Source: Neptunomonas japonica JAMM 1380
GTDB lineage: Bacteria > Pseudomonadota > Gammaproteobacteria > Pseudomonadales > Balneatricaceae
Length of the DNA stretch: 64,000 nucleotides
Direction of reading: 5' to 3'
NCBI RefSeq assembly: GCF_016592555.1
Contig: NZ_AP014546.1
Location: forward strand, 3,358,501 to 3,422,500
The notes under the pieces were generated by a model. That model ran no database searches and had not been told where the DNA came from. It saw nothing but the letters and a program-made list of their open reading frames with translations. Position numbers and translations under genes: made by a program. Within the stretch, counting starts at the first letter, position 1; every line of letters begins with the position of its first letter. This document shows, piece after piece, positions 2,431 through 62,686 of the stretch.

Positions 2431-2468
2431 GAAAACTCTAATTAATACTCGAATTAAAACTAAAAAAA

Positions 2469-3815: not shown

Positions 3816-3853
3816 GTCAGGTTAGTCGACGCTCTGTGTTATTAGTTCAGTGA

Positions 3854-4336: not shown

Positions 4337-4341
4337 TTAGC

Positions 4342-5847: not shown

Positions 5848-5916
5848 AACCTTACGCTTCCAAACACTGGGTGACTTTATTCATTATAGTTGAAGCGATA
5901 GCTAAACAGGCAAGTA

Positions 5917-7068
5917 TTGATCGTGACTGATTCTGTTTCATCCACACCTATTCAACCCGCACAGCCAACTGCTCCAGAGCTGTCTGATAAAAAATTAACG
6001 GCATTAGCAAAACAAGTCCATCTTTGGGCGGCTGAAGCGGGCTTTCAAGAATGTGGCATTGTGGATCCAGATCTTGAAGAAGACGCCAATCAATTACACC
6101 AATGGCTAGAAAAACACTATCACGGAGAAATGAGCTACCTTGCTACAAATACTGACAAACGCCGTGCCCCTTACTTACTCGTCCCAGGAAGCTGCCGCAT
6201 TATCAGCGTAAGAATGGACTATACACCGCCTGCTTTTTCTTCTTTAAAGGTGCTTAATTCCCCAGAAAAAGCCTATATAGCACGCTATACGCTAGGCCGG
6301 GATTATCACAAGATGATGCGTAAACGTCTAACACAGCTAGGAAAACGCATTGCAGAAGCCGCCGGCAATATGGGCTATCGCGCCTTTGTCGATAGCGCCC
6401 CTGTGATGGAACGCCCCATTGCACAACAAGCAGGCATTGGCTGGACAGGAAAACATACTCTCATTCTGAACCGACATGCAGGCTCATGGTTTTTCCTGGG
6501 TGAACTATTTATCGATTTACCACTGCCGACAGATCCTCCTGTAGAAAAGCAACACTGCGGCTCCTGCACAGCCTGCCTCGATATCTGCCCAACTAAGGCT
6601 TTTACCGGGCCCTATGAATTAGACGCTACACGTTGCATCTCTTATCTAACGATCGAGAAAAAAGGCGCCATTCCAGAAGAGCTAAGACCCCTAATGGGTA
6701 ACCGAATTTTTGGCTGTGATGATTGCCAATTGGTATGCCCATGGAACCGCTTTGCTAAACAGACGGAAGAAACAGACTTTCATCCGCGTCACCAGCTGGA
6801 TGATGTCTCTTTGATTGATCTATTCAACTGGAATGAAGCAGCATTTTTGAAACGCACTGAAGGCTCCGCTATTCGCCGCACAGGGTATGATGGCTGGCTA
6901 CGTAACATCGCCGTTGCGTTGGGTAATAGTGGTGGCGGAAAAGAAGTAATCGACGCCTTAGAAGCCAAACGCCCGCACTGTTCAGAGATGGTAACAGAAC
7001 ACATTGATTGGGCTATCAAACGCTTATCCGACGGCGAAACACTGCTATCGCCTATTCAGCTAAAGTGA
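5917..7068 (+). CDS. queG: epoxyqueuosine reductase QueG
   Basis: QueG is the cobalamin- and iron-sulfur-dependent enzyme that makes queuosine from epoxyqueuosine in tRNA. Two 4Fe-4S cluster motifs are seen: Cys214, 217, 220 and 224 (CGSCTACLDICP) and Cys267, 270 and 274 (CDDCQLVCP). The conserved DSAPVMERPIAQQAGIGW-type block is at about residues 159-176. The frame opens with a TTG; a GTG six bases downstream would shorten the protein by two residues, and both are plausible. The location beside nnr is common because queG (yjeS) neighbours yjeF in many gammaproteobacteria. Confidence 0.95.
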   Translation: MIVTDSVSSTPIQPAQPTAPELSDKKLTALAKQVHLWAAEAGFQECGIVDPDLEEDANQLHQWLEKHYHGEMSYLATNTDKRRAPYLLVPGSCRIISVRMDYTPPAFSSLKVLNSPEKAYIARYTLGRDYHKMMRKRLTQLGKRIAEAAGNMGYRAFVDSAPVMERPIAQQAGIGWTGKHTLILNRHAGSWFFLGELFIDLPLPTDPPVEKQHCGSCTACLDICPTKAFTGPYELDATRCISYLTIEKKGAIPEELRPLMGNRIFGCDDCQLVCPWNRFAKQTEETDFHPRHQLDDVSLIDLFNWNEAAFLKRTEGSAIRRTGYDGWLRNIAVALGNSGGGKEVIDALEAKRPHCSEMVTEHIDWAIKRLSDGETLLSPIQLK

Positions 7069-7098
7069 CTTGAATTAGCCCGGCCAGTCAAAGCCTTG

Positions 7099-8940
7099 TT
7101 AAGAAGTAAGGCGCGCATAGAGCTGCGGTAGCTTAGCGGGCAATTCTGCTGCTCGCCTAATCAAGGTGTAATGACCACGACCAAACAGATAAGGTAAATA
7201 GTCTTCTGCTTCTTCATCGATAGTGATACAGAAAGGAATCAGGCCAGCTTTACGCGCTTCAATAATCGCCATTCGCGTATCTTCAATACCGTAGCGGCCC
7301 TCATAATAGTCTAAATCGTTCGGCTTACCATCGGTCAAAATCAGCAGCAGCTTTTGCTTTTGTGGCTGCAAGTTCAATAATTCAGTAGAACGACGTATGG
7401 CAGCCCCCATACGCGTGTAATAACCCGGTTTAATCGCTTCAATTTGCTGACGCGCCTGACGACCATACGCTTGATTAAAACCTTTCAGCATATGAAAACG
7501 TACATGATTACGATAACGCGAAGAGAAGCCACATATTGAGAACTGATCACCCGTTTGCTGTAACGCTTCACTAAACAGGTACAAGCTATCCCGGATAATA
7601 TCGATGACTCTTGCCTGATCACCCACCCAAGCATCGGTAGAAAGCGACAAATCAGCCAATAACAAGCACGCCAGGTCTCTATCTTTTTTCTCTAGAGCAG
7701 AATACAAACGTGGCTCTTCAACCTGTTGGCCAGCAGCACGCTGCCCCCGAAATTTAAGATACGCCTCAAGATCCAGTTCACTACCCTCTTCCTGATGCTT
7801 AACCCAAGTAGACTGGGGGCGTAATGCCATAAATTGACGACGCAAACGCCGTGCTGCTGGCCTGAGTCTTTCGGGCAGTTCTCCTGCATCTGTTACTGCG
7901 GCTTTAATGGTCAAAAGACTACAGTGATCCTTCACTAATATTTGTTTTCTAAAATCCCACTCTGGTAATAAGTGCCCCTCACCTAGAATGACCTCCTCCT
8001 CTTCAGCTGAGGGTAGGTCTAAATCAAAGCGAACGCTTTTAGCCGTCGTATTATTATCACGAGTGATGGTAAGTTCATCCATCTCATTGGCATTATTTTC
8101 AGCGTCTTGCAGATCATCGTCTTCATCTTCGGAACGATCAAGATTGGCCATTTCAGCGACACTAAACAAACTAGTTTCATGACGTAACGTCAGTAAGCCA
8201 CCTTTGTTATTATCCGCCTTTTTCCGCTTCGCTTTTCGCTTACGCTGCTGCTCAGACTGCTTAGTCTCTCCTTGCGAGGAAGGCTCTTGCTGACTAGCCG
8301 ACTGGCAAACTTCACTAGCAATAGCGCTTTGAGGAGGTGATGGATGCAACCACAAGAGCACTGGCAACGGGTCACGTGGACATTCACTCAAATGCGCCAC
8401 GGTACCAGGAGAGTACAAAGCTTTTTGAATGTCTCGTTCTTGAGCACTTTCTTCTGCATTCAACTTGTCCACATTTGGCCGTAAGCTAATAGCCGCTGTC
8501 ACTAAACGATGATAACGATCAACCAAACCTGGGTAACGTTGCAGGATAAACAACACTTGTTGCTGGCTACGGGAAATCCAACCGAGGTCATCAAAAGCGG
8601 GGGCTGTCGCCATTGCGGCTAACCAGTAATAAAGTTCTCTATTGAGGTCAGCCTTAGGAAATAAATTAATACGATCGGGAAGGTGTAACGTCTCAGCGCT
8701 ACGCCACGCCAGTGAGATACGTTTACCGCTACCGGCTACTCGTTGTAACCAGTGACGCCGCTGTGAGGACTCTGTTTGCACAGAAGCACGAATACTCAAC
8801 CCGCCATCGCCGCCTAAAGTACGAAAGAAAATGGAGAGCGGCTTGCGAACACTATCGAGGGTAACCGCTTCATGCTCCCAGGCAGGATCAGCCATTCGCC
8901 TAATCAACCGATCCCAATACTTACCAACCTGCTCTTCCAT
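7099..8940 (-). CDS. norD: nitric oxide reductase activation protein NorD
   Basis: NorD acts with the AAA+ protein NorQ in the maturation of the NorCB nitric oxide reductase, probably in insertion of the non-haem iron. The C-terminal third (from about residue 425) is a von Willebrand A domain with a D-L-S-L-S MIDAS motif (inside LLADLSLSTD) and a later L-T-D-G-K-P-N-D. The middle section, about residues 215-310, is very charged and low in complexity (K/R-rich, then D/E-rich) and is probably a flexible linker. The length (613) is typical of NorD. It is last in norCBQD, 75 bp after norQ. Confidence 0.93.
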   Translation of the reverse strand: MEEQVGKYWDRLIRRMADPAWEHEAVTLDSVRKPLSIFFRTLGGDGGLSIRASVQTESSQRRHWLQRVAGSGKRISLAWRSAETLHLPDRINLFPKADLNRELYYWLAAMATAPAFDDLGWISRSQQQVLFILQRYPGLVDRYHRLVTAAISLRPNVDKLNAEESAQERDIQKALYSPGTVAHLSECPRDPLPVLLWLHPSPPQSAIASEVCQSASQQEPSSQGETKQSEQQRKRKAKRKKADNNKGGLLTLRHETSLFSVAEMANLDRSEDEDDDLQDAENNANEMDELTITRDNNTTAKSVRFDLDLPSAEEEEVILGEGHLLPEWDFRKQILVKDHCSLLTIKAAVTDAGELPERLRPAARRLRRQFMALRPQSTWVKHQEEGSELDLEAYLKFRGQRAAGQQVEEPRLYSALEKKDRDLACLLLADLSLSTDAWVGDQARVIDIIRDSLYLFSEALQQTGDQFSICGFSSRYRNHVRFHMLKGFNQAYGRQARQQIEAIKPGYYTRMGAAIRRSTELLNLQPQKQKLLLILTDGKPNDLDYYEGRYGIEDTRMAIIEARKAGLIPFCITIDEEAEDYLPYLFGRGHYTLIRRAAELPAKLPQLYARLTS

Positions 8941-9015
8941 CGGATGACCTCATTAATAATACTCACAGCGCAATAAAAGAAGCCGCTGCCAAAAAAAGTG
9001 CTTATCAGCAATCAT

Positions 9016-9834
9016 TTAAAAGTTAGCTTTTACCACTTCCATCAACGCAGTAATGGTATCTTCATCATCAGTGAGCGATTCAACCAAGCCTGCTCTACAT
9101 GCCTCTACAGGATCAAATCCTGCTTTTATTAAGGTAGCGGCATACACCAAAAGACGTGTACTAGCGCCCTCCTCTAAATCCATATCTTTTAAGCCACGCA
9201 AGCCGGTAGCTAAGTTAATAAGCCGCTGTGCATTGGCTGAATCCAAACCCGTTTCGGCTTCAAGAACGCGTCTCTCTTCTTCAGGTTTTAAATAATTAAA
9301 ACTCATTGAAATAAAACGCTGTCGCGTGCTGGGTTTAAGGCCTTTCATCAGGTTTTGATAACCCGGGTTATAAGAAACCACTAACATGAAATTTTTAGGT
9401 GCATGCAGCAGCTCATTAGTACGGTCTATTGGTAAAATTCGTCGATCATCCGTGAGTGGGTGAATAACCACAGTCGTATCTTTACGTGCTTCAACCACTT
9501 CATCCAAATAGCAGATACCACCCTCACGAACAGCCCTCGTTAAAGGACCATCATGCCACTGGGTCATACCATCACCGATAAGGTAACGACCCACTAGATC
9601 AGAGGCAGTTAAGTCGTCATGACAGGAAACCGTATGTAAGGGCAGCCCCAAACGCTCGGCCATATGACTAATGAAACGAGTTTTACCACAGCCTGTTGGG
9701 CCTTTAATCAAGACTGGTAACTGGTTCTCATAGGCATGAGTAAACAGCTCTACTTCGTTATGTTGTGGCAGGTAAAAAGGCGCGGCTTCATTGTCGACAC
9801 CAAGATTCAGCTCAACTGTATTAGCAGTAGACAT
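9016..9834 (-). CDS. norQ: MoxR-type AAA+ ATPase NorQ
   Basis: NorQ is the AAA+ partner of NorD. Starting at the ATG at 9834, the 272-residue protein has Walker A GPTGCGKT (45-52) and Walker B G-G-I-C-Y-L-D-E-V (105-113), followed by sensor and arginine regions typical of CbbQ/NirQ/NorQ. An upstream in-frame ATG would add 18 residues (M-A-D-K-A-K...), but those codons run through the terminator-like hairpin at 9867-9893. The ATG at 9834 is preceded at good spacing by ACGGAG, so I choose it. It sits between norB and norD. Confidence 0.94.
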   Translation of the reverse strand: MSTANTVELNLGVDNEAAPFYLPQHNEVELFTHAYENQLPVLIKGPTGCGKTRFISHMAERLGLPLHTVSCHDDLTASDLVGRYLIGDGMTQWHDGPLTRAVREGGICYLDEVVEARKDTTVVIHPLTDDRRILPIDRTNELLHAPKNFMLVVSYNPGYQNLMKGLKPSTRQRFISMSFNYLKPEEERRVLEAETGLDSANAQRLINLATGLRGLKDMDLEEGASTRLLVYAATLIKAGFDPVEACRAGLVESLTDDEDTITALMEVVKANF

Positions 9835-9854
9835 AAGAATCTCCGTAAGAATTT

Positions 9855-9893
9855 TTAAAAAAAGAAGCGCTTTGGCTTTATCAGCCAAAGCGC
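9855..9893 (-). terminator. strong hairpin with U-rich tail between norB and norQ
   Basis: Two perfect 11-base arms (9867-9877 and 9883-9893) enclose a 5-base loop. On the minus strand they are followed by a T-rich run (complement of 9857-9866). This has the form of an intrinsic terminator just after the norB stop at 9903 and just before the norQ ribosome site. Since norQ and norD have no obvious promoter of their own here, it is more likely a partial terminator or an mRNA-stabilising 3' end that keeps NorQD below NorCB. Confidence 0.75.
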
Positions 9894-9902
9894 CATATGA
9901 GC

Positions 9903-11803
<1,901 letters not shown>

Positions 11804-11861
11804 AGAAAGCTCCGTCACCCAAGAGAGGGCCAGATTGCACAGTTAAGATTCAGGTGTGGCT

Positions 11862-11867
11862 ATTATG
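11862..11867 (-). promoter_or_regulatory. -10 element of the predicted norC promoter
   Basis: The minus strand reads CATAAT here (plus ATTATG). It places a predicted transcript start near 11855, about 52 bases before the norC ATG. The distance from this start to the centre of the box at 11890-11903 is 41.5 bases, the classic spacing for a class II FNR/DNR-activated promoter. Confidence 0.65.
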
Positions 11868-11889
11868 GAAAGTTGTGAGCAGGAAACAA

Positions 11890-11903
11890 TTGATCAATAT
11901 CAA
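11890..11903. promoter_or_regulatory. FNR/ANR/DNR-type operator upstream of norC
   Basis: TTGATCAATATCAA matches the FNR-family consensus TTGAT-N4-ATCAA at all ten defined positions. FNR, ANR and the NO-sensing DNR/NNR proteins share this site, so the sequence alone cannot say which one acts. Control of norCB by a DNR/NNR-type NO sensor is well known in denitrifiers. No such regulator gene is present in the window. Confidence 0.85.
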
Positions 11904-11987
11904 GTAAAACCAAAAAATATATTAAAAATACATCTTATTGATTAAAGAGCTCCATTTTCTCATTTAAATAGTCATTTATCGTGGACG

Positions 11988-12890
11988 TTATCTCTGTGAT
12001 TGAAGCTTGCTTAGATCCATTTTCTTCGCAACTTGAATAAATGCCAACGCCGCTGGGGAAGCTCTCTTTTTACTATGAATAGCTAACCCTACATGCCTAA
12101 AAGCAGGTGGAGATAATGGTTTTACTAAATATGCTTGCTCCGCCTTTAACTGCTCACCCTCGGGCAAAGCAAGTTCGGCTAATATAGTGACGCCCTCACC
12201 TCTGCCCACCAACGCGAGAGTACTCATCACTTGGGCACTGCGAAAATGTACATTGGGAAGTAGATTTTTGGCATGAAACAAGGATGTGACAATTTCTGCT
12301 GAGCCCGCCTCTGTCATAATAAACGGATCACTACATAATTCACCTAAGCGAATGCTCACCTGTCTTGCTAACAAATGCTTTGGAGGCAGTAACGCCACCA
12401 TCTGATCTTTTACAAGCTCATATGTTTCAAAGCGCTCTTCAGGCAAAACAACGAAACCGATATCAATACGTCTATCAAGAATCCATTGTTTTACGTCCTG
12501 GTCAGGCCCTTCATCAATATGCACTTCTATCATTGGGTATTGACGACGATATTCATGGAGTAACGCGGGCAACAACCTTAAAGAGGAGCTCGGCCCAAAA
12601 GAACCAATACGCAATGTTCCTGTTTTTAAACCCTGCGCATCTGCTGCCTCTTGACGGATAGTTTCGTATAAACCCATCATTTCTCGCGCACGCAGCAATA
12701 ATCGAGCGCCTACTTCAGTCAACTCAGCATCCGCTTTTAAACGTATGAATAGCTGTACACCTAGTTCTTTTTCAAGCGAACGAATTGCATGAGACACTGC
12801 AGACTGACTTATACCAAGATGCAATGCGGCCGCTGTAAACCCACGATAATCAGCAACCATCACAAACGCTTCTAACTGGTTATTAGTCAT
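11988..12890 (-). CDS. LysR-family transcriptional regulator
   Basis: The N-terminal winged helix-turn-helix (residues 1-60, with A-A-L-H-L-G-I-S-Q-S-A-V-S-H-A-I-R-S-L-E) is followed by a LysR substrate-binding domain (about 88-292, beginning G-T-L-R-I-G-S-F-G-P). The length (300) is standard. It is divergent from an EamA-type transporter with 74 bp between starts, the usual layout in which a LysR protein controls the neighbouring transporter. The effector cannot be told from sequence. It lies upstream of norC on the same strand, but norC has its own promoter. Confidence 0.93.
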   Translation of the reverse strand: MTNNQLEAFVMVADYRGFTAAALHLGISQSAVSHAIRSLEKELGVQLFIRLKADAELTEVGARLLLRAREMMGLYETIRQEAADAQGLKTGTLRIGSFGPSSSLRLLPALLHEYRRQYPMIEVHIDEGPDQDVKQWILDRRIDIGFVVLPEERFETYELVKDQMVALLPPKHLLARQVSIRLGELCSDPFIMTEAGSAEIVTSLFHAKNLLPNVHFRSAQVMSTLALVGRGEGVTILAELALPEGEQLKAEQAYLVKPLSPPAFRHVGLAIHSKKRASPAALAFIQVAKKMDLSKLQSQR

Positions 12891-12964
12891 GAGTAATCGC
12901 TCATTTTACTATGAAATCACATGAAGTAGATTATGCAGCTTATTTCATCTCAGGATACTTTTCC

Positions 12965-13888
12965 ATGTCAACAGCTCTATCAGCCGAGCTAACAACGCCG
13001 CCATTAATAGGTATTTATCTGAAGCTAACAGCCGTCGCTTTTGTATGGGGAGGTACATTTGTTGCTGGGCACTCTTTGATGCAAACACTACCACCTATTA
13101 CTGCTGCTACAGCAAGATTTTTTGTAGCTGTTATATTACTTATCGCTTGGGCTTACAAAACAGAAGGCGGGCTACCTAAGCTAACGGCTCAACAACTATT
13201 AGTGACTTTCTGCTTAGGTGCTACCGGTGTATTTCTCTACAACTTATGCTTTTTTGCAGCACTCTCAACACTTCCTGCAGGGCGAACAGCCTTACTTGTT
13301 TCACTTAATCCAATTACCACCGCATTAATTCTCGGCCTCCTATTTGGTGAACGTCTAGGAATAACTCGCTGGCTGGGAATCACACTCGCTTTCATAGGAG
13401 CCGCTATTATTGTCACTCAAGGAGACCTTTCTGGCGCAGCGCATGACTTGTCGAGCGCCTTTGGCCAAGGAGAGATTTATATGTTGTGTGCTGTCATGAG
13501 TTGGGCAACATATACCATCATTGGTCGTTACGCCCTTAAAGGCCTTAGCGCTCTTGTAGCGACTACGTATGCGGCTCTCTGGGGATTACTTCTGCTAACT
13601 GCTGCGATGCTATTTAACCCTCCTCAAATAAATTTCGCTCAACTCTCTTGGCTATCTATTGGGGCGATCATTTATTTGGGAGCATTTGGCACTGTCATCT
13701 GTTTTGTCTGGTATTACCAAGGCGTCAAAGCCATTGGTGCTTCAAGAACAGTAGTCTTTACCAATCTAGTGCCCGTTTTTGGTGTGTTACTGGCCATGTT
13801 GCTATTAGGCGAGCCAATATTAATATCTATGTTACTAGGGGGGGCATTGGTGATTGGCGGCGTTACGCTCACCAATCGGTCGCCATAA
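12965..13888 (+). CDS. EamA/DMT-family inner-membrane transporter
   Basis: About ten membrane segments form two EamA repeats (about residues 13-145 and 170-305), the architecture of drug/metabolite exporters such as RhtA and YdcZ-type proteins. Typical motifs are F-V-W-G-G-T-F-V-A-G-H near the start and the L-F-G-E-R-L-G / L-L-G-E-P-I ends of each repeat. I use the ATG at 12965, preceded by AGGA at nine bases; an upstream in-frame start at 12911 would add 18 unrelated residues and crowd the promoter. Substrate is unknown. The divergent LysR gene is its likely regulator. Confidence 0.9.
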   Translation: MSTALSAELTTPPLIGIYLKLTAVAFVWGGTFVAGHSLMQTLPPITAATARFFVAVILLIAWAYKTEGGLPKLTAQQLLVTFCLGATGVFLYNLCFFAALSTLPAGRTALLVSLNPITTALILGLLFGERLGITRWLGITLAFIGAAIIVTQGDLSGAAHDLSSAFGQGEIYMLCAVMSWATYTIIGRYALKGLSALVATTYAALWGLLLLTAAMLFNPPQINFAQLSWLSIGAIIYLGAFGTVICFVWYYQGVKAIGASRTVVFTNLVPVFGVLLAMLLLGEPILISMLLGGALVIGGVTLTNRSP

Positions 13889-53047: not shown

Positions 53048-53077
53048 TAAAAAAACCCGCAAAGGCGGGTTTTTTTA
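53048..53077 (-). terminator. terminator after the 44-residue membrane protein
   Basis: AACCCGC/GCGGGTT arms with a 4-base loop, an A-run on one side and a T-run on the other. It lies about 15 bases beyond the small gene's stop on the minus strand, supporting that gene as a real transcription unit. Confidence 0.85.
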
Positions 53078-53488: not shown

Positions 53489-54238
53489 TTAGAAAATTTC
53501 AACGTCCCCCGCTTGCATCCCCACTTGGGTAACTGGGCGCTTAACGGCTATCGACTGCTGTAGCTTTATTGCACGGCAGCTGTGTAATAAATTATCTAGC
53601 TGTGTTTGTATTTGTGTAGCATCATGAAATGATATCAACTTTAGCTGTTCAGCGACTTGAGTCAGTAAATGAGTATTCTGATTTAGTGCAGTTAATGCCT
53701 GTGAAGATAAGTCCTCAAACTGTAACGAGCTAACAGCATCACTCAGTGCACCTTCGAGTTGCTCTCCTAAAGCGTCTATTACCTGAGCATGTTCGCTAAC
53801 ATACCTATAATTGGTAGCAGCTATAGAAGGATTATTGGCTTTATTAAAGAGTTCAATTGAAAGCTCTCTGTGCTGACTAGAAAGTAAATTGACGGCTTTA
53901 AAGCTGTCGCCTAATACCTGAACAGCTTCTTTAATAATCCCATCAGTACGTGCCACTTCCTGTTTAATAATCAATGCTTCATGGGTTATTATCTGCTCTA
54001 TTTGATCAAATATAGGGGCCAAAACCTCTTTTTCCAGTACTGATGGCGGTTGCTGAGCAGCACCAGAAGGCGACTTGTTACCTCTAATACCCGGTAACCC
54101 CACCAGCAAAATCCCAAAAAACAAACCCATTTCAGCAGCCCAACGAACACTAGAGGTTGTCATACTTTCGGCGACAATAAGTGCTAAGAATGAAATAACT
54201 AAAATAATGATCCCTATGTCTTTATTCATCATTAACAT
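53489..54238 (-). CDS. membrane-anchored helical chemotaxis protein with CheZ-like D-x-x-x-Q motif
   Basis: The 249-residue protein ends the chemotaxis operon, 16 bp after cheB. Two membrane segments (about 8-24 and 36-50) are followed by a long helical region. Residues 174-180 read F-E-D-L-S-S-Q, which resembles the CheZ active site F-Q-D-L-T-G-Q, where the Asp and the Gln four residues later carry out CheY-P dephosphorylation; here they would be D176 and Q180. The C-terminus is G-D-V-E-I-F, nearly the same as the end of CheD (G-D-V-E-L-F). No CheZ, CheC or CheX gene is in the cluster. I infer a CheY phosphatase or adaptor anchored in the membrane; it is not an annotated CheZ. The start may be the first (54238) or third codon. 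Confidence 0.72.
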   Translation of the reverse strand: MLMMNKDIGIIILVISFLALIVAESMTTSSVRWAAEMGLFFGILLVGLPGIRGNKSPSGAAQQPPSVLEKEVLAPIFDQIEQIITHEALIIKQEVARTDGIIKEAVQVLGDSFKAVNLLSSQHRELSIELFNKANNPSIAATNYRYVSEHAQVIDALGEQLEGALSDAVSSLQFEDLSSQALTALNQNTHLLTQVAEQLKLISFHDATQIQTQLDNLLHSCRAIKLQQSIAVKRPVTQVGMQAGDVEIF

Positions 54239-54254: not shown

Positions 54255-55313
54255 TTATGTTTTTAGTTTTTTAACTAATGCTTGAGATACTTTATCGAGT
54301 GGCAAGATATCTACCGCTGCTCCCAATTTTACAGCCGAACCAGGCATCCCCCATATCAAACTACTTTCTTCATTTTGGGCAATTGTATAAGCCCCCTCCT
54401 TCTTTAAGCGAAGCATTGCCTCAGCACCATCACTCCCCATGCCGGTTAATAAGACAGCGATAGCTACCTCTACGTTTACTGCATTCAGTGAGTCAAACAA
54501 CACATCAACAGAAGGTTTATGCCGATTTACTAAAGCACTATCTTCCACTCTACATATTAACCTTGTGCCATGGCGCTCTATTTTAAGGTGACGTCCTCCC
54601 GGTGCAAAATAAGCAACACCTTGCTCTAACGCTAAACCGTCAGTCGCTTCGACGACAGAGATCACACTTTTTAGGTCGATACGTTTTGCCAGACGAGCAC
54701 TAAATGAAGCTGAGATGTGCTGAGCTATAACAATAGGAGGAATATCCTTAGGTAAAACAGAGAGAATTTCCTGTAATGCTTCTGTTCCTCCCGTTGATGC
54801 GCCAATAGCAATGACGCTCTGCCCTATATTATTTTCTAAGTTCAGCGGTTTAAGTACGGGCGAAGAGTGTTGACGCGATGCAGGTGGAAGACTCATTACT
54901 ATTTTATTTTTTACACTGGCCGCCGCTTTTAATTTTCCTTTTAACTCTTCAGCAAAGTCACTCATCGCCATATCTTGCGCACCCGATCGAGGTTTGGGCA
55001 TATAATCAATCGCGCCAATGGCTAATGCCGTCAAAGTTTCATCAGTACCTTTTGCAGTAAAAGTCGATAACATAATGACTGGTAAAGGGTGTAGCCTCAT
55101 CAAGTTACGTAAAAAAGTAATGCCATCCATTTTGGGCATTTCAATATCAAGGGTAAGCACATCGGGTTTAAGCTCTTTTATCATTGCCCTCGCTTCATAA
55201 GGGTCATGGGCAGCCCCCACAACCTCAAAAGCACTATCTGCAGATAAAACTTCTGTTATCACATGACATATCAGAGTGGAGTCATCAATAATCAATACCT
55301 TAATACGTTCCAT
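54255..55313 (-). CDS. cheB: chemotaxis protein-glutamate methylesterase CheB
   Basis: CheB removes methyl groups from chemoreceptors. The N-terminal receiver domain has phosphorylation site D56 (L-T-L-D-I-E-M-P-K-M-D-G). The C-terminal esterase has the triad S173 (G-A-S-T-G-G-T-E-A-L), H199 (I-A-Q-H-I) and D295 (G-M-G-S-D-G-A-E-A-M). The length (352) is normal. It lies between cheD and the terminal gene of the operon. Confidence 0.97.
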   Translation of the reverse strand: MERIKVLIIDDSTLICHVITEVLSADSAFEVVGAAHDPYEARAMIKELKPDVLTLDIEMPKMDGITFLRNLMRLHPLPVIMLSTFTAKGTDETLTALAIGAIDYMPKPRSGAQDMAMSDFAEELKGKLKAAASVKNKIVMSLPPASRQHSSPVLKPLNLENNIGQSVIAIGASTGGTEALQEILSVLPKDIPPIVIAQHISASFSARLAKRIDLKSVISVVEATDGLALEQGVAYFAPGGRHLKIERHGTRLICRVEDSALVNRHKPSVDVLFDSLNAVNVEVAIAVLLTGMGSDGAEAMLRLKKEGAYTIAQNEESSLIWGMPGSAVKLGAAVDILPLDKVSQALVKKLKT

Positions 55314-55335: not shown

Positions 55336-55962
55336 TCAAAACAACTCAACATCGCCACCTATTGGCTCAGCAGCCAATCTATTTTTAAAGTTGCTTTCTG
55401 CTGCCAACAATTTCTTATTATGTAAAGTAGCTAGTTTTTTTACTAACATGCGCCCTTGCTGAGGCAAATAAACAACATTACGCGGTTGATCACCACCTAT
55501 ATCCGCTGAGAGCATATCTAACCCTTCATCCAGTAAGTATTGAGTAACAAACCTCGTATTCTGCCCTCCAATATCACTCATTCCTTGGACCATGCGACCA
55601 CCGCCTGTAATTTTTATCTCTAAGCGTTCTTTAACACCACCAAATTTCATAACGGCATTAATCAATGTCTCCATGGCATAGGCTCCATACCGTGAAGAAT
55701 CAGACCAGTCGGTTGCTCGACTACTTTCAGCGAAGGGTAAAATAAAATGATTCATTCCGCCAACGCCTATAACAGGATCTCTCACACAGGCGGCAACACA
55801 CGAACCGAGAGTAGTAGTAATAGCTTCATTATTTTGAGTAACATAGAACTCACCAGGTTTGATTTTTACGGCGAAACAACCTCGTGACTCAAGCCAATAT
55901 TGATTGAAATTTTCGAAGCCAGGCAATACGCGTTGTGGCGGATCCAAGCAACTTACGACCAT
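55336..55962 (-). CDS. cheD: chemoreceptor glutamine deamidase CheD
   Basis: CheD deamidates receptor glutamines. The catalytic C55 is in T-L-G-S-C-V-A-A-C-V and H72 in G-M-N-H-F-I-L-P. The end reads I-G-G-D-V-E-L-F, matching the tail of the last protein in the operon (G-D-V-E-I-F). It starts one base after the cheR stop (TGATATG), so translation is coupled. The length (208) is slightly above the family norm because of an N-terminal extension of about 30 residues. Confidence 0.94.
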   Translation of the reverse strand: MVVSCLDPPQRVLPGFENFNQYWLESRGCFAVKIKPGEFYVTQNNEAITTTLGSCVAACVRDPVIGVGGMNHFILPFAESSRATDWSDSSRYGAYAMETLINAVMKFGGVKERLEIKITGGGRMVQGMSDIGGQNTRFVTQYLLDEGLDMLSADIGGDQPRNVVYLPQQGRMLVKKLATLHNKKLLAAESNFKNRLAAEPIGGDVELF

Positions 55963-55963
55963 A

Positions 55964-56836
55964 TCAATAGTCCTTTTGATAAATCGTATTACCGATCAAT
56001 TTAAACCTGTCCGTTAACCGAAAGGGGGATTCTGAATGCCCTACAAAAAGAAACCCACCTGGTTTTAATAAATCCGCCATACGATTTAACAGTAGCTTTT
56101 GGGTTTCTTTGTCGAAATAGATCATAACGTTACGACAAAAAATCGCATCTAAGGGCCCTTTCATTGGCCAGGAATGCATTAAATTCAGCTCTTTGAACGT
56201 AATCATTTCCTTAAGCTCATCTGCAATTTTAACCATGCCTGAATACTGACCTCGCCCTTTTCTAAAGAAACGCGTTTTAAATACCGGCGGCATAGCATCA
56301 ATGCGATCTACCCCATACATGCCTGTTTGAGCAATTTCTAGCACATCAGAATCAATATCAGTCGCTAATATTTTGATATCCCATTCACGCAAATCAATAT
56401 CCGTCGTTCTAAGGGCCATCGCCAAACTGTATGGCTCTTCTCCCATAGAGCAGCCTGCTGACCAAATTCGAATTCGCTGTAAACCACCGGCGTCAACATC
56501 AGGTATCACTACTTGTTTTAGAAATTCAAAATGATGGCTTTCTCTAAAAAACGCAGTCAAATTAGTCGTCAATGCGTTTATAAAAAGTGGAAACTCTCCT
56601 ACATTGCTGGCCAAATAAGAAAAATAAGCGCTAAAGCTACCCAATGATAATACTCTGATACGCCGCACTAGGCGGTTATAAACCATATCTTTTTTATAAT
56701 CAGACAAGGCAATACCGGCATGTTTATATAACTGACTTCGTATGGTTTCAAAATCCTGGTCAGTAAAAACAAATTCCCGCTCTGGAGATACGTTCATTCC
56801 AATCACAGCCATTTTTTCAAGATTCTTATGAATCAA
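55964..56836 (-). CDS. cheR: chemotaxis protein methyltransferase CheR
   Basis: CheR uses S-adenosylmethionine to methylate chemoreceptor glutamates. The N-terminal helical domain (about 15-85) is followed by T-N-L-T-A-F-F-R-E-S-H-H-F and the SAM-binding W-S-A-G-C-S-M-G-E-E-P-Y-S-L-A-M, with I-F-C-R-N-V-M-I-Y-F later. The length (290) is normal. The upstream receptor ends in a pentapeptide of the CheR-tethering kind. Confidence 0.96.
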   Translation of the reverse strand: MIHKNLEKMAVIGMNVSPEREFVFTDQDFETIRSQLYKHAGIALSDYKKDMVYNRLVRRIRVLSLGSFSAYFSYLASNVGEFPLFINALTTNLTAFFRESHHFEFLKQVVIPDVDAGGLQRIRIWSAGCSMGEEPYSLAMALRTTDIDLREWDIKILATDIDSDVLEIAQTGMYGVDRIDAMPPVFKTRFFRKGRGQYSGMVKIADELKEMITFKELNLMHSWPMKGPLDAIFCRNVMIYFDKETQKLLLNRMADLLKPGGFLFVGHSESPFRLTDRFKLIGNTIYQKDY

Positions 56837-56851
56837 ACTACAGCACTCTCA

Positions 56852-59209
56852 CTAAAACTCTTCCCACTCAGTATCATCAGGAGTTTCCTTCATAAGAATG
56901 GTTTCACTTTTATATGAACCTGTTGCAGGAATTCGCGCTGCTTGCTCCGAATTTAAGTGCTTTGTTTTCCATCCGTGATTCTTAATATTGATAGCCGGCA
57001 GATGAGTAACATTTGATGGTGTAATAATGCTCACCTTGAATACATTTACTAGATGTTGCAGCTGCTGAGCTTGCTCATCCATCGATTCAGAAGCGGCGGC
57101 AACTTCTTCGACAAGCGCAGCATTTTGTTGTGTACCTTCATCCATCGCCGTGACAGCTGAGTTAACTTGCTCAATACCATTGGCCTGCTCTCGGCTAGCT
57201 TCTGCAATCTCGTTAATAATCGAAGATACCTTGGAGACTCCTTGCATTATTTCATTCAATGCACGCCCTGATTCATCGACATAGTGGCCACCTTCTTCCA
57301 CTTTTTCTACACTATCGCTAATCAGGTGCTTAATCTCTTTTGCGGCACTAGCACTTCGCTGTGCAAGGTTACGAACCTCAGCAGCGACTACTGCAAATCC
57401 TCGGCCTTGCTCTCCCGCTCTTGCTGCTTCAACTGCGGCATTGAGCGCTAATAAGTTAGTCTGAAAAGCAATTTCATCAATCACACCAATAATTTCTGCG
57501 ATCTTTTTAGAACTCTTGCTGATATCACCCATAGAGCTAACAACTTTCTCAGATATCACACGACCATCATCCGCTAACACCTTGGCTTGCTCTGCCAACC
57601 GGCTAGCTTCTTGAGCACTCACCGCATTTTGCTTCACTGTTCCTGTCATCTCTTCCATGCTCGCAGATGTTTCCTGCAAGCTAGTAGCTTGGCTTTCAGT
57701 TCTCTGACTCAGTGTTGCATTGCCATGAGCAATTTCAGATGCCCCCGTAGTAATGTTGGAGCCAGCTGAGCGGATTTCACTCACCATATCTTGAAGCTTA
57801 TTCATCGAAGTGTTCAATGCATCATTTAACTCTGCGTACTCACCAGAGAAATTCCCCTGCATATTCTGTGTTAAATCGCCATCTGCCAAAGCCACTAATA
57901 CGCGCTTAGCTTCTCGTACCGGCTCAACAACAGCATCCAGCATCTCATTAACTCCCGATGCTATATTTTTCATAAAACCGTCATAAACAGTATCGTCTAA
58001 GCGCTGGCTCAGATTGCCGTTAGATGCATCCTGAATTAGTCTTTCTACGGCCTTCTCTGCTTGCAACTGATCCGTCAAATCTTTCCACTCAACTACCGTG
58101 CCTAAACGCTCTTTATCAGGTGAAAATACTGGGTTAGCTAATAGAATAAAAGTGCGACCGCCTATACAAACCTGACTCTCTAAGCCCGACTTTAATGCAT
58201 CCTTTAACTCTTCTTTATAAGCAATATCAGTATGAAATTCATCGATATTGCTTCCCAGTAATAGCTTATTATCAAACGTTGGCAAATCGGTACAAATATC
58301 ATCCTGAGCAATACTAAACATTTTCAGGATGGCACCATTCACATAAATAATTCGACCCATGGGGTCTACCATCATCACGCTGGATGAAACACTATCGAGC
58401 GCTTGTGTGATTCGGCTTGAACGCAGTGCTTCCAAATGAGATTCATTAATTTCGAAACCGAGCTTAATGGCTAATGATTTCGCAGCACGATTAAGGCTGC
58501 CAATTTCACCCTCTTGCTCTACCTCTATATCTGTATGGTAATCTCCTTCACTGACACGTTTAAGTGTGGCAATAGTTTCAAATAATGGTTGCTTCACATA
58601 TGTCCTGATACAACTTACTGCTCCAAAAAGCATAATAAGAAAAGCAGCAAATGGAGCAAGCGCAATAAGTGAGGTCTGCCCTGAACTATAGAGCCCGCTG
58701 GCAACTAACAGCATCACAATTAAAGCTATTGCGGCCCAGTTATATAGTTTTTTATCAAGTATTTGTGTGGGGATTTTGGACGGATCAGATAACCGAGCTT
58801 CTTTATTACGTAACTGTGTATAAAAAATTTCAGCAGACTGTCTTTCAGCATCAGTGGGGGCGGTCCGTACTGACATATAACCAACAATTTGTCCTTTTTT
58901 ATATACCGGTGTTACATTCGCTTTTACCCAATAAAAATCACCATTATTACAGCGATTTTTTACCATTTTGCACCAAGGCCGATCAAGTTTTAATGTTGAC
59001 CACAAATCTTCAAACGCTTCCTGAGGCATATCGGGGTGTCGGACAACATTATGATTCTGCCCGACCAGCTCCTCTTCACTAAAACCGCTAACCTGAATAA
59101 AGGCCGGGTTTACATAAGTTATCCGCCCCTTAAGATCCGTTTGAGTCACTAACTCCTGTCCAGGTGTTACGTGTCTTTCGTGATCAGTCACTGGCATGTT
59201 AACTTTCAT
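56852..59209 (-). CDS. PAS-containing chemoreceptor with C-terminal tethering pentapeptide
   Basis: The 785-residue receptor begins with an Aer-like PAS domain (about 20-125: [20 protein letters not shown]), then two membrane segments (about 165-205), HAMP, a second PAS domain (about 268-385), a second HAMP-like segment with D-G-D-L-T-Q-N-M and the signalling domain with [20 protein letters not shown]. It ends D-T-E-W-E-E-F, a W-x-x-F pentapeptide for CheR/CheB tethering. PAS domains suggest redox, haem or flavin sensing. Its place between cheW and cheR matches Aer2/McpB in the Pseudomonas che2 cluster, but the domain order is different. Confidence 0.93.
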
Positions 59210-59285: not shown

Positions 59286-59774
59286 TCAGTCGAGATCAGC
59301 ACCGCTTTGCTCACCCGAGTTCATCAAATAATCCAAATCTAATAGAACAACCATTTTTTCGTTCATTGTTGCCAACGCTTCAAAGTACTGTGGATCTATA
59401 CCGTTTCTTATCAAAGGAGCAGACTGGATATCATCACTAGATACGTCATAGGTATCGGCTACCGCATCGACGACAACGCCCATGCAATGTTCACTTTCAG
59501 GACCATGTACCCATACAACGATCACCACTGTTGTAGCTCCATACTCTAGGCTAGGGAAGCCAAAGCGAATGCGTAAATCTATAATTGGAATTATTTCCCC
59601 GCGTAAGTTGAGCACGCCTTTCATGTAATCAGGCGAATTGGGTATGCGCGTCACAGGAACCCACCCACGAATTTCCTGTACACGTAAAATATCTACCCCG
59701 TATTCTTCATCAGCTAAAATAAAGGTGAGAAATTGACGCATTTTTAAGAGTAAAGGCTCTACTATTTCCGTCAT
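59286..59774 (-). CDS. cheW: chemotaxis coupling protein CheW
   Basis: CheW bridges receptors and CheA. The 162-residue SH3-like protein has the usual Q-F-L-T-F-I-L-A-D-E-E-Y-G-V-D-I-L start, V-Q-E-I-R-G-W and the V-L-N-L-R-G-E-I-I-P-I-I-D-L-R block. The ATG overlaps the cheA stop by four bases (ATGA). Confidence 0.96.
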   Translation of the reverse strand: MTEIVEPLLLKMRQFLTFILADEEYGVDILRVQEIRGWVPVTRIPNSPDYMKGVLNLRGEIIPIIDLRIRFGFPSLEYGATTVVIVVWVHGPESEHCMGVVVDAVADTYDVSSDDIQSAPLIRNGIDPQYFEALATMNEKMVVLLDLDYLMNSGEQSGADLD

Positions 59775-61945
59775 ATGTTCGCCTTTGCCAATAGGTGGCC
59801 ATTATCCTTAGTTGCCGCATGTGGATACCGACTTGTTGATGAGTCCAACCCCATTTTAATGACACCTGCCACATCAAGAATCAAAGCCACTTGCCCTGTA
59901 CCTAAAATCGTTGCGCCAGAAAAACCTTCTACTCGCTTATAATTTGTTTCTAAGCTCTTAATCACTACCTGCTGCTGACCTTGCAGCTCATCTACAATTA
60001 AGCCAGCCCTTTTACCTCCTCCCTCAACAATCACCATCAAACTATTAGTAAAGTTTTTAGGCGTTTCACTCAAACCAAAAACATCGCTGAGGCTAATAAC
60101 TGGAATGTACTCATCTCTAAATGAAAATAAACACCCGCGACCTACAACAGCATTAAGGGATCCGGTCGATACCCAAATGGATTCGATAATAGACAGTAAC
60201 GGGATGATATAAATTTCGTGATGCGCTTGTATTAGCTGCCCATCAAGAATAGCTAACGTCAACGGCAAACTAACAGTAAAAGTAGAGCCTTCACCCTCCT
60301 CAGATACCACCGCAACATATCCACCTAAGGCTTCAATATTTCGACGCACCACATCCATACCAACGCCTCTACCAGAAAGATCATTAACTTCGGCTACAGT
60401 GGAAAAACCAGGTACGAATATTAAGTCATGGATATCTGTATCGTTAAGTAATTGATCAGTAGTAATGAGGCCGCTGGACAAAGCTTTTTCTCGTATTTTA
60501 TCGGTGTCTAATCCTCGCCCATCATCCTTAATTTGGATGATAATAAAACCACCTTGATGAGAAGCATTTAGGTGGACAGTCCCGCTCTCCGTTTTTCCCG
60601 CAGCAATACGTTCTTGTGGTGTTTCCAAACCATGATCTAGAGCGTTGCGTATTAAATGTAATAATGGATCCCCTATTTTCTCCATCACTGTTTTATCCAG
60701 CTCGGTTTGCTCTCCAGACAGCTTCAACTCAACCAGTTTCCCCAGCTTGCTGCTAATATCATGCACCATTCTTGGAAAACGATTAAAGACAAAACTTATC
60801 GGTAACATTCTAATTCTCATGACCTCCTCTTGAAGGTCACGAGTGTTTCTTTCTAATTGAACTAAACCGTCATTTAAGCGCTCAACCCCAGGGTGATCAC
60901 AGTCAGACATTTCTAAACCAACCTGTCCCAACATAGACTGTGTAATAACGAGTTCACCGACCCTATTAATGAGCCCATCAATTTTATCAATACCGACACG
61001 AATAGAGCCTTGGTCAGCTTGATTTTTTCTTGAATTTTGCGCTGGAGCAGCAGGAGAGTCACTACTAATTTTAGGGCTGAGTGTTTCAAAACTGGCACTG
61101 GCTGGCTCTACACTTTCGGCATTAGCAGGCTGCTCCGTTGCTTTCTCAAAAGTCATCTCAGGAGCAACTGGATCATTCGTCACACTCTCTTCAGAAGTCA
61201 CATCTGCCGACTTCTGCAAAGGGAAAACGGATAATGAGCAATCACCCTCGACCCATTCAAAGATCTCACGTACAGCAAGTTCACTGCAGTCACTATAAAG
61301 GTTAATTTTCCAATGTAGGAATAACTCCTCAGGATTCAACTCATCCAGACTAGGCACCAGACCTATCGCTGCATTAGTAACTAGTTGTCCTAGGTCCGCT
61401 AGTGCAGACATCAATAAGATAGGCTCATTTCCTGTCATCAGTAAATGAGGAGCCGGAGCAAAATCAATCACCCAACCTAGAGTCTCCATGACTGGAACAT
61501 GAGAAGAAGACAGATCTATTATCTCAAGCTCATTTGAGACTATTGCTACCTTATCTTCATTATCACAAGATAACTCTGCTTCTAATTGCTGAAGTACCTG
61601 CTTTATTTGAGGTTCATCACATGCAGTACCATCTCTTGCCGCTTCTAGTAATAAACGTATGCAATCGACAGATGATAGTAAGACACTTTTTAACGAATCG
61701 CTGCATGACCTACGCCCTGCACGTAGTTCATCCATGAGTGTTTCAACTACATGGGTAAAATCTGTAATATTCGAAAAACCAAAAGTCCCTGCTCCGCCTT
61801 TAATTGAATGCGCGGCTCGAAAAATAGCATTGATGGCTTCAGCATCATTTTCTTCAAGATTTAAAAGACCAGACTCCATTACCTCAAGCCCTTCAAAGCT
61901 TTCTTCAAGAAAAACCGGAATAAACTGGGATAGATCAATGCTCAT
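59771..61945 (-). CDS. cheA: chemotaxis histidine kinase CheA
   Basis: CheA phosphorylates CheY and CheB. P1 (about 1-110) has phosphorylation site H46 in R-A-A-H-S-I-K-G-G-A-G-T-F-G-F. A linker rich in Ser, Glu and Pro (about 235-310) leads to the P3 dimerisation helices (V-G-E-L-V-I-T-Q-S), the P4 ATPase with H-L-I-R-N-A-L-D-H-G-L-E and the G-box G-R-G-V-G-M-D-V-V, and the P5 CheW-like domain. The length (724) is within the usual range. It follows cheY by 6 bp and overlaps cheW. Confidence 0.97.
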   Translation of the reverse strand: MSIDLSQFIPVFLEESFEGLEVMESGLLNLEENDAEAINAIFRAAHSIKGGAGTFGFSNITDFTHVVETLMDELRAGRRSCSDSLKSVLLSSVDCIRLLLEAARDGTACDEPQIKQVLQQLEAELSCDNEDKVAIVSNELEIIDLSSSHVPVMETLGWVIDFAPAPHLLMTGNEPILLMSALADLGQLVTNAAIGLVPSLDELNPEELFLHWKINLYSDCSELAVREIFEWVEGDCSLSVFPLQKSADVTSEESVTNDPVAPEMTFEKATEQPANAESVEPASASFETLSPKISSDSPAAPAQNSRKNQADQGSIRVGIDKIDGLINRVGELVITQSMLGQVGLEMSDCDHPGVERLNDGLVQLERNTRDLQEEVMRIRMLPISFVFNRFPRMVHDISSKLGKLVELKLSGEQTELDKTVMEKIGDPLLHLIRNALDHGLETPQERIAAGKTESGTVHLNASHQGGFIIIQIKDDGRGLDTDKIREKALSSGLITTDQLLNDTDIHDLIFVPGFSTVAEVNDLSGRGVGMDVVRRNIEALGGYVAVVSEEGEGSTFTVSLPLTLAILDGQLIQAHHEIYIIPLLSIIESIWVSTGSLNAVVGRGCLFSFRDEYIPVISLSDVFGLSETPKNFTNSLMVIVEGGGKRAGLIVDELQGQQQVVIKSLETNYKRVEGFSGATILGTGQVALILDVAGVIKMGLDSSTSRYPHAATKDNGHLLAKANI

Positions 61946-61951
61946 ATGAGA

Positions 61952-62314
61952 TTACCGCACAACACGCTTTAAAGTGGACAACAACGTTTCGGGGTTAAAC
62001 GGCTTTACCAACCACCCCGTAGCACCAGCAGCTTTACCTTTATACTTCATTTCCTGAGAGTTCTCAGTGGTCAAAATTAAGATTGGCGTAAATTTAAACG
62101 ACTCTAATTTACGCAATTCAGTACATAAAGAAATACCGTCCATTTTTGGCATATTGACGTCAGTTAAAACTAGATCGCATACAATATGTTTGGCTTTATT
62201 AAAGGCGTCTTCCCCATCTTCAGCCTCAACAACATCGTAGCCTTGTTTTGTTAATGTAAAAGTCACCATACTGCGTAACGATACTGAGTCATCAACAACT
62301 AAAACTGTTGCCAT
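61952..62314 (-). CDS. cheY: chemotaxis response regulator CheY
   Basis: A 120-residue single-domain receiver: acidic pair D8-D9, phosphorylation site D52 in L-T-D-V-N-M-P-K-M-D-G, the conserved Thr in I-L-T-T-E-N and the Lys of W-L-V-K-P-F. It is placed directly upstream of cheA and downstream of the STAS gene by 18 bp. In che2-type clusters this CheY need not be the flagellar-motor regulator. Confidence 0.95.
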   Translation of the reverse strand: MATVLVVDDSVSLRSMVTFTLTKQGYDVVEAEDGEDAFNKAKHIVCDLVLTDVNMPKMDGISLCTELRKLESFKFTPILILTTENSQEMKYKGKAAGATGWLVKPFNPETLLSTLKRVVR

Positions 62315-62332: not shown

Positions 62333-62596
62333 CTACCAAGTGATACCTAAGGCATCGCTCATACCTAACCATTGTGCACTTTTTGACAAAACAGCCGAAT
62401 TACCCGACCAGTGTATATCTCCCTCTTTTGCTTTAAGCGCTTGTTTCACAGCAAACAATAGCTGAATACCCGCCGAGTCAATTTTCTTAAGAGTAGATGT
62501 ATCGATATAAAGGACAGAAGCCTCGCTGATTTGAGAGATAAATTCCTCTTTCCACTGCGCAATTTCAATGATGGTCAGGTGTTCAGGCAAAACCAT
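62333..62596 (-). CDS. STAS-domain protein at the head of the chemotaxis operon
   Basis: The 87-residue protein is a STAS domain, with the central block Y-I-D-T-S-T-L-K-K-I-D-S-A-G-I-Q-L-L containing the serine typical of sulfate-transporter/anti-sigma-antagonist folds. In sigma-regulatory systems that Ser is phosphorylated; here the partner is unknown. The ATG at 62596 follows AAGGAG at good spacing. The longer frame to 62668 would add 24 residues without a domain match. STAS proteins are found with che clusters of Vibrio and Pseudomonas types. Confidence 0.88.
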   Translation of the reverse strand: MVLPEHLTIIEIAQWKEEFISQISEASVLYIDTSTLKKIDSAGIQLLFAVKQALKAKEGDIHWSGNSAVLSKSAQWLGMSDALGITW

Positions 62597-62658
62597 AGTG
62601 GAACATCTCCTTAGCAAACTAATTACAAGATAGTCTAAATACTGTCCTGTAGAGAGAT

Positions 62659-62686
62659 TCATCGGCATTTATTATTAAAACCTTTG
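62659..62686 (-). promoter_or_regulatory. possible sigma28 (FliA) promoter for the chemotaxis operon
   Basis: The minus strand reads CAAAGGTT (62686-62679), 12 bases, then GCCGATGA (62666-62659), close to the flagellar sigma28 form TAAAGTTT-N11-GCCGATAA. Spacing is one base longer and there are three or four mismatches. It would start the transcript about 50 bases before the STAS ATG. Confidence 0.4.

Follow-up and report, generated by a model that had tools for sequence, protein, structure and literature searches.

An F7-like che operon of Neptunomonas japonica JAMM 1380 ends with a gene whose product is, by sequence comparison, a McpA-like receptor without the MCP signalling hairpin ("headless"), about 150 residues of the full-length form being missing. 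The probability that this headless protein is a stalk-borne CheZ-type phosphatase of the cognate F7 CheY is put at about 0.5. Without such a role, it is hard to account for the exact conservation of an Asp and a Gln in proteins that have no receptor tip and adjoin cheY or cheB. The odds are limited by the absence of a family-level link to CheZ, by a missing contact residue on CheY and by the many CheD-bearing genomes that are free of the tail.

The headless gene and its che operon

The window, by which the whole analysed stretch of 64,000 nt is meant, comes from a genome assembled as a single 4.1-Mb contig. The gene is a 249-aa ORF on the minus strand (53489-54238). The database copy of the protein (P0001) has 246 aa and begins with MNKDIG, where the ORF has its third Met, and the true start perhaps lies at Met3 or Met4. 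The features referred to below are the following.

53048..53077, minus strand: terminator-like hairpin 3' of the headless gene (sequence)
53489..54238, minus strand: headless McpA-like protein, 249 aa; aligns with both halves of the 396-398 aa receptors
53492..53509, minus strand: C-terminal GDVEIF, residues 244-249 (G244 in 96/98, F249 in 98/98)
53639..53821, minus strand: predicted second long helix, residues 140-200, bearing SLQFEDLSSQAL (AlphaFold2, conservation)
53699..53701, minus strand: Q180, CheZ-type glutamine (107/108 in the set collected without a motif pattern)
53711..53713, minus strand: D176, CheZ-type acidic residue (108/108 in the same set)
53813..53836, minus strand: junction, approximately residues 135-142, the site of the MCP signalling hairpin in full-length relatives (alignment)
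53837..54040, minus strand: predicted first long helix, residues 67-134 (AlphaFold2; conserved E94 and R97)
54089..54229, minus strand: predicted N-terminal membrane hairpin, residues 4-50 (hydropathy, AlphaFold2)
54255..55313, minus strand: cheB (by eye; served as reference for locus comparison)
55336..55962, minus strand: cheD, product ending in GGDVELF (PF03975)
55964..56836, minus strand: cheR (by eye)
56852..59209, minus strand: MCP with a PAS-like start and an Aer2-like position, ending in EWEEF (PF00015; PAS by eye)
59286..59774, minus strand: cheW (by eye)
59771..61945, minus strand: cheA (by eye)
61952..62314, minus strand: cheY, the likely substrate, with N59 and E89 present and Gln at 92 (alignment)
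62333..62668, minus strand: STAS-like protein, first gene of the operon (by eye)

The genes are arranged in the order STAS-cheY-cheA-cheW-PAS/MCP-cheR-cheD-cheB-headless gene, with names given by eye and with CheD and the MCP recognised also by profile. The operon appears to be F7-like, a class assigned from gene order against the clusters described in the accessible text of PMC7184735. A gap of 16 bases separates the end of cheB from the headless gene, the next same-strand ORF downstream (139 aa, acetyltransferase-like by eye) starts 580 bases past it, and the terminator-like hairpin lies on its 3' side. The sequence-only reading, which had placed this gene last in a che operon devoid of cheZ, cheC and cheX, is borne out on both counts: none of the three was found among the ORFs of the cluster, and the single CheZ of the genome lies outside it, as does the one CheC-domain match over the cut-off (E 3.4e-4). 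No CheX was matched in this genome. The CheC-domain match (L254, G000 C1:113059-113172) is located near the MCP gene L245, well away from the F7 cluster.

Pfam, NCBIfam and PDB sequence searches with the window protein gave nothing above chance, and a PDB profile match to a designed propeller was rejected as a chance repeat match. A protein search returned seven relatives. Four are short, namely its own entry of 246 aa and three others (239-248 aa, identity 56-71%), and the remaining three, with lengths of 396-398 aa, contain an MCP domain. The latter match the query at both ends and carry about 152 extra residues between, around the tip of the MCP hairpin. In one of them, P0005, the extra segment consists of about 83 residues before the tip and about 70 after it, the hairpin spanning approximately residues 137-288. 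A search with P0005 yielded at least 8000 matches, as expected of any MCP; the 120 matches listed were short MCPs of 317-412 aa, and those with names came mostly from Neptunomonas, Neptuniibacter and their kin. The homology of the window protein to McpA-like receptors spans the membrane part, the first helix and the tail. The PF00015 signalling domain is absent from it, and the 23 MCP places counted in the genome do not include it. Its position behind cheB, its membrane start and its conserved C-terminus with Val also fit McpA-like receptors as portrayed in the accessible text of PMC7184735, which supports the headless McpA-like identity.

Two membrane segments had been proposed from the letters alone, and both hydropathy (residues 8-26 and 33-51) and AlphaFold2 (helices 4-26 and 29-50) agree with this. 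Further helices are predicted at 67-134, 140-200 and 207-231, followed by a loose tail, with a mean pLDDT of 78.6, a pTM of 0.54 and a block of pLDDT 80-89 over residues 71-200. The motif FEDLSSQ at residues 174-180 had been assigned to a long helical region; the codons of D176 and Q180 were verified on the DNA, and AlphaFold2 puts both residues in helix 140-200. Among the relatives listed, E94 is kept in 125/125 and R97 in 124/125.

The headless gene is constrained but relaxed. Compared with N. japonica G001, its dN/dS (Nei-Gojobori script) is 0.43 over the whole gene and 0.07-0.13 in four neighbours; by part, the value rises from 0.21 for the C-terminal tail to 0.31 for the first helix, 0.40 for the second and 0.85 for the membrane part. 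Identity to G001 amounts to 69% for the headless protein versus 86-90% for CheR, CheD, CheB and CheW. The receptors of six hairpin-bearing pairs are nearer to their che genes, the hairpin itself raising those figures. The low identity, the dN/dS of the whole gene and that of the membrane part would suit a truncated McpA that is functionless and being lost. Such degeneration is nevertheless very improbable, given that the frame is open and the motif retained in all four short proteins, of which three are 56-71% identical to the window one, that dN/dS is lower in the tail and the first helix, and that similar forms occur elsewhere, many from Nitrosomonas.

The motif and headless forms in other lineages

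DxxxQ alone is uninformative, being found in 59% of shuffles of the window protein and in 23/47 window ORFs, while F[EQ]DxxxQ occurs in 0.4% of shuffles and 1/47 ORFs. Among 369 genomes of the class to which the window belongs, 87 had a match to the tail profile. Conservation was counted on 108 unique tails obtained from the profile with no motif pattern required; tails with identical last 130 residues were collapsed to one, and loci L070-L149 were excluded because their scan had required QFED. D176 and Q173 are kept in 108/108, Q180 in 107/108 and F174 in 102/108 of these tails. The profile includes the motif columns and favours them somewhat, yet residue 175 inside the motif varies (E in 88/108, otherwise G, Q, D, A or H), unlike the Asp and Gln. 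Conservation of D176 and Q180 in relatives had been set beforehand as a condition for the catalytic proposal, and these counts provide it; a chance motif, which had also been considered, is ruled out by them. Ser or Ala stands five residues before the Asp in 92/108 tails, Ser in the window protein, and QFED...Q is kept in 125/125 relatives listed, all close kin. With six residue kinds tried before the Asp, the genome's 23 MCP places yielded no [FY]-x-D-x-x-x-Q after the tip. The single tail with Arg replacing Gln (SEDVVRR; L155, 666-1529, plus strand) is otherwise similar and forms a natural test case.

As judged from sequence, headless forms exist in several lineages. Among 178 unique tail proteins, a match to the MCP hairpin is missing from 11, of which L219 and L086 run off a contig end and L157 is a divergent 369-aa protein. 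The remaining eight are those of the window, N. japonica G001, L125, L150, L151, L152, L153 and L154. L125 (256 aa) has a membrane hairpin and derives from a different order, in one metagenome assembly, and L150-L154 have no clear membrane segment. L150 (191 aa) adjoins cheY, L154 (150 aa, with one borderline hydrophobic stretch) directly precedes cheY-cheA-cheW-cheR-cheD-cheB, L151 and L152 lie directly behind cheB, and L153 (155 aa) has no che neighbours. AlphaFold2 predicts helices at residues 14-59 and 69-113 of L154 (pLDDT 73.0, pTM 0.53). A profile of ten headless forms retrieved 205 proteins, and the 120 listed of these have 156-266 aa except for one full MCP (P0232), many being named from Nitrosomonas. 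Among the matches listed, QFxDxxxQ is present in 120/120, an end of the type [VI]x[LIV]F in 116/120 and a predicted membrane stretch in 8/120. P0235 and P0242 (Nitrosomonas ureae) bear the UniRef name "Chemotaxis protein CheZ", which is a label only.

In a tail tree of 136 hand-picked rows (24 headless) and 114 columns, six changes of hairpin state are seen, and starred branches force three or more of them; 60/128 inner branches are open, the placement of L153 and L154 on long branches is unsure, and the tree by itself does not separate gain from loss. The window clade falls among hairpin-bearing Neptunomonas (99, starred) and L125 among hairpin-bearing Alteromonadales (98, starred). Since headless clades are nested among hairpin-bearing ones, stalk and tail appear to have been kept without the receptor tip.

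In the set collected without a motif pattern, cheB is the nearest che neighbour for 21 of the 40 tail genes that have one, and for 20/57 tail genes on loci of at least 14 kb, the flanking 9 kb contain no recognised core che gene. The frequency of cheB would suit a target other than CheY, be it the CheB receiver, the long CheY-domain proteins found near some mcpA-like genes (close to tail genes in L158, L167 and L169) or the STAS branch, and stage 1 clusters contain STAS proteins and a serine phosphatase according to the accessible text of PMC7184735. This seems quite unlikely, however, as no long regulator of this kind is encoded in the window operon and the soluble L150 and L154 adjoin cheY. 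The long CheY-domain proteins (L158, 9738-11468; L167, 2112-3815; L169, 7081-8748) have 555-576 aa and, by eye, may correspond to the regulator/serine phosphatase of the STAS branch. Near the divergent tail gene of L156, cheR- and cheA-like sequence extends over several ORFs (2396-13430), a decaying cluster or assembly frameshifts.

C-terminal peptide, the putative CheY partner and the proposed role

The CheD of the operon ends in GDVELF, like the GDVEIF of the headless protein. The C-terminal pattern G-x-[VIA]-[EDTVS]-[LIVF]-F was found in 170/180 tail proteins and 55/98 CheD, and in none of 77 CheA, 90 CheW, 113 other MCP, 98 CheR, 124 CheB, 72 CheY and 4 STAS proteins; among other ORFs it occurred in 1/10422, a piece of a CheD. 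The same end prevails among 30 further CheD loci, in some cases extended by one or two residues past the Phe, and the CheD of G279 ends otherwise. In the clusters of loci L070-L285, CheD and the McpA-like and headless proteins share the end G-x-[VI]-E-[LI]-F. CheD accompanies the tail in 77/81 tail genomes versus 39/258 others (raw counts with kin genomes included, genomes up to G393, taking all as searched), and a tail match is absent in 39/116 CheD-bearing genomes. Since the CheD of tail-negative genomes has the exact peptide end in 7/8 cases and an end two residues longer in 1/8, the peptide is independent of the tail gene. The peptide shared by CheD and the headless and McpA-like proteins is likely a docking signal for one common partner. 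Within genomes, CheD and tail hexapeptides were identical in 12/89 cases (random mean 6.3; 34/2000 shuffles as high); this matching was set aside, kinship being a sufficient explanation.

The same end could instead tether the F7 CheR through its E/D-V-E-x-F and bring it to neighbouring receptors, DxxxQ then being structural. A 2025 review, in its accessible part, assigns Mlp44 (VCA1088), Mlp1 and Mlp45 to V. cholerae system III and describes their common E-W/V-E-X-F end as a possible CheR3 site (PMC11940527). This suggested site disagrees with the report on P. aeruginosa McpA, whose Val blocks interaction with any of four CheR in the text available (PMC7184735); Val in place of the pentapeptide aromatic also occurs in the window GDVEIF. 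A methylation helper is thus unlikely, the more so as CheD carries the same peptide, also in tail-negative genomes, the peptide persists where the receptor hairpin is lost, and the Asp and Gln would be left unexplained.

The CheY partner was considered with a set of 47 unique F7-type CheY (at most 1.5 kb from a cheA and above 100 bits to the window CheY; loci L070-L149 included). D57, N59, T87 and E89 are invariant in 47/47; at CheZ loci, N59 is present in 13/14 and E89 in 14/14 CheY. Position 92 is Arg or Lys in 14/14 at CheZ loci versus 0/47 in the F7 type, with Gln in the window. Gln147 of CheZ acts at N59/E89 of CheY, and Asp143 of CheZ pairs with Lys92. With N59 and E89 kept and residue 92 changed in F7 CheY, the Gln part of the chemistry seems feasible, and the contact of the Asp has to be a different one. 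The latter would also be compatible with a docking site or sink for CheY or CheY-P, in which the DxxxQ face and the C-terminal peptide hold CheY at the membrane or receptor and decay of the phosphate is intrinsic. Such a sink would account equally for the Asp/Gln conservation and the adjacency to cheY and cheB, and for a C-terminal peptide in common with CheD, which is no phosphatase. It is nevertheless rather unlikely, because the Gln four residues past the Asp (107/108) is not obviously needed for docking and N59/E89 are kept in every F7-type CheY.

Other phosphatases are common in the same genomes, CheZ being present in 28/30 tail-bearing genomes tested. Two drafts of one genus, G301 and G189, each 97-98% complete, lack any match to CheZ, CheC or CheX and carry a soluble headless protein behind cheB, and G279, which bears L154, has both CheZ and CheX.

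For the preferred phosphatase reading, the headless stalk would follow the CheZ plan, with a membrane hairpin, an antiparallel two-helix stalk in a putative dimer, D176 and Q180 on the returning helix and a C-terminal peptide, an anatomy taken from prediction. The stalk would dock the phosphorylated F7 CheY of its own operon, Q180 would orient water and D176 assist, and the aspartyl phosphate would be hydrolysed. In full-length McpA-like receptors, the stalk would have this activity as well, the headless protein being an enzyme freed from the receptor, and the off-reaction would be located at the membrane. Counted in favour were the conserved Asp and Gln, the repeated change of hairpin state in the tail tree, the siting of soluble forms beside cheY or behind cheB, the varying residue 175, the absence of the motif from all 23 MCP places, the invariant N59/E89, the local profile signal with CheZ (below), the two genomes without CheZ, CheC and CheX, the co-occurrence of tail and CheD, and the F7 clusters with cheY and no cheZ. 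Counted against, besides the three limits named at the start, were the global-mode result, the response of a CheZ HMM to ordinary MCPs and the generic fold matches (below), the association of Shewanella McpA with CheA3 of F6, the lack of a CheZ-type C-terminal peptide, the fast evolution of the window copy, the prevalence of CheZ in tail genomes, the tail genes without che neighbours and the Shewanellaceae without McpA-like genes.

According to the accessible text of PMC7184735, the F7 cluster of stage 1-2 organisms has its own cheY, with cheZ only in the F6 cluster; in stage 3, mcpA-like genes are lost and the F6 cheY/cheZ pair is kept; and McpA-like genes are absent from some Shewanellaceae. 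These Shewanellaceae and the 39/116 CheD-bearing genomes without a tail indicate that F7-like systems can dispense with the tail gene. The full-length McpA of Shewanella goes with CheA3 of F6, not F7, and swimming is unaffected by its absence, as given in the accessible part of PMC9855816. The sequence-only reading would put signal termination beside the receptor array; in view of this F6 association and of the hairpin lost from the headless form, such a placement is at most a possibility. A wider model is advanced tentatively, at somewhat lower confidence than the phosphatase reading itself. McpA-like receptors may be receptor-phosphatases whose stalk evolved apart from CheZ as the F7 CheY-P phosphatase; repeated loss of the tip may have given free membrane-bound and soluble look-alikes; recruitment of CheZ in later F7 stages may have made the receptor dispensable; and the peptide shared with CheD may be a docking signal for a common core component.

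Ortega et al. (2020), in the text accessible, regard as unclear both the role of McpA-like receptors for F7 while in the F6 array and that of their conserved C-terminus, which is considered important (PMC7184735). A CheZ-type site on the stalk would be a concrete answer to this question, and the stalk would provide F7 clusters with a CheY phosphatase, which they otherwise appear to be without. The headless and soluble natural forms are small proteins that separate stalk from receptor. In the open-licence literature (subscription papers on P. aeruginosa Che2 being outside its scope), no report joining McpA-like receptors to a CheZ-type motif or activity was found.

Relation to CheZ and comparison with known systems

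The sequence-only reading had expected an unrecognised membrane-anchored CheZ-type enzyme or a distant CheZ relative. Its membrane anchor and its motif, near-invariant and in a predicted helical hairpin, stand; recognisable membership in the CheZ family does not. The window protein does not reach the curated cut-off of PF04344 (Pfam, NCBIfam), its relatives are McpA-like chemoreceptors, and the idea of a plain CheZ was dropped for want of a family match. PF04344 is not among the 25 families listed for 43 McpA-like proteins, nor for 42 mostly headless ones, and NCBIfam Phos_CheZ matched 1/42 of the latter (E 0.011). A weak signal came from comparing the tail profile (104/108 tails) with a profile of 15 CheZ: in local mode, Asp and Gln are in register (Prob 54%, P 1.3e-4), versus Prob 11-13% and P 2.3e-3 to 2.7e-3 for reversed controls. 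In global mode, the Prob of 8.6 hardly differs from the 7.2 and 6.1 of reversed controls. Fold searches found generic helical hairpins, receptor stalks included, with CheZ outside the rows listed. Since an antiparallel pair of helices makes up receptor stalk and CheZ alike, common descent and convergence are not separable.

A home-made CheZ HMM was discarded as evidence, because ordinary tail-less MCPs score with it as well. Three short MCPs (L037, 1357-2541, minus strand; L039, 745-1956, plus strand; L038, 697-2022, plus strand) have QFQDxxxQ tails and end in VLFF, VKFF and IELF, respectively. Their E values against PF04344 of 3e-6 to 4e-4, under the cut-off, were set aside as proof, given that the CheZ HMM also rings on ordinary MCPs. 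They perhaps belong to a broader set of receptors whose tails resemble CheZ.

CheC, CheX and FliY phosphatases differ in fold from CheZ-type proteins, and the DxxxQ of HisKA_3 kinases sits on a helical-hairpin dimer. The role of the former would be the same as that proposed here, with the motif ExxN in CheX (accessible text of PMC3510030), and none is encoded in the cluster. Kinases of the HisKA_3 type such as NarX likewise need a DxxxQ to dephosphorylate a receiver domain, as the same text has it (PMC3510030), whereas the window protein has no His kinase parts.

CheZ itself has the motif AxxFQ-DxxxQ, and its hairpins dimerise into a four-helix bundle, which is followed by a linker and a C-terminal helix, according to the accessible part of PMC7750401. 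Like CheZ, the window protein has DxxxQ with [AS]xxF before it in the second helix of a predicted hairpin, and then a C-terminal acidic/hydrophobic peptide; the soluble L150 and L154 resemble it also in siting, adjoining cheY. Unlike CheZ, the window protein has a membrane hairpin, no significant family match and a CheY partner without Arg/Lys92, and it ends in GDVEIF, not in the VDDLLxxLGF type (ends of 15 CheZ checked).

The window protein differs from CttP/PA0180, VCA1088/Mlp44 and McpAso/SO_2117 in having no MCP signalling hairpin. It resembles these McpA-like receptors, by their published description, in lying beside or behind an F7 cluster, in its N-terminal membrane region and in its conserved C-terminus with Val second in the pentapeptide position, and the full-length relatives found here share its QFED...Q tail.
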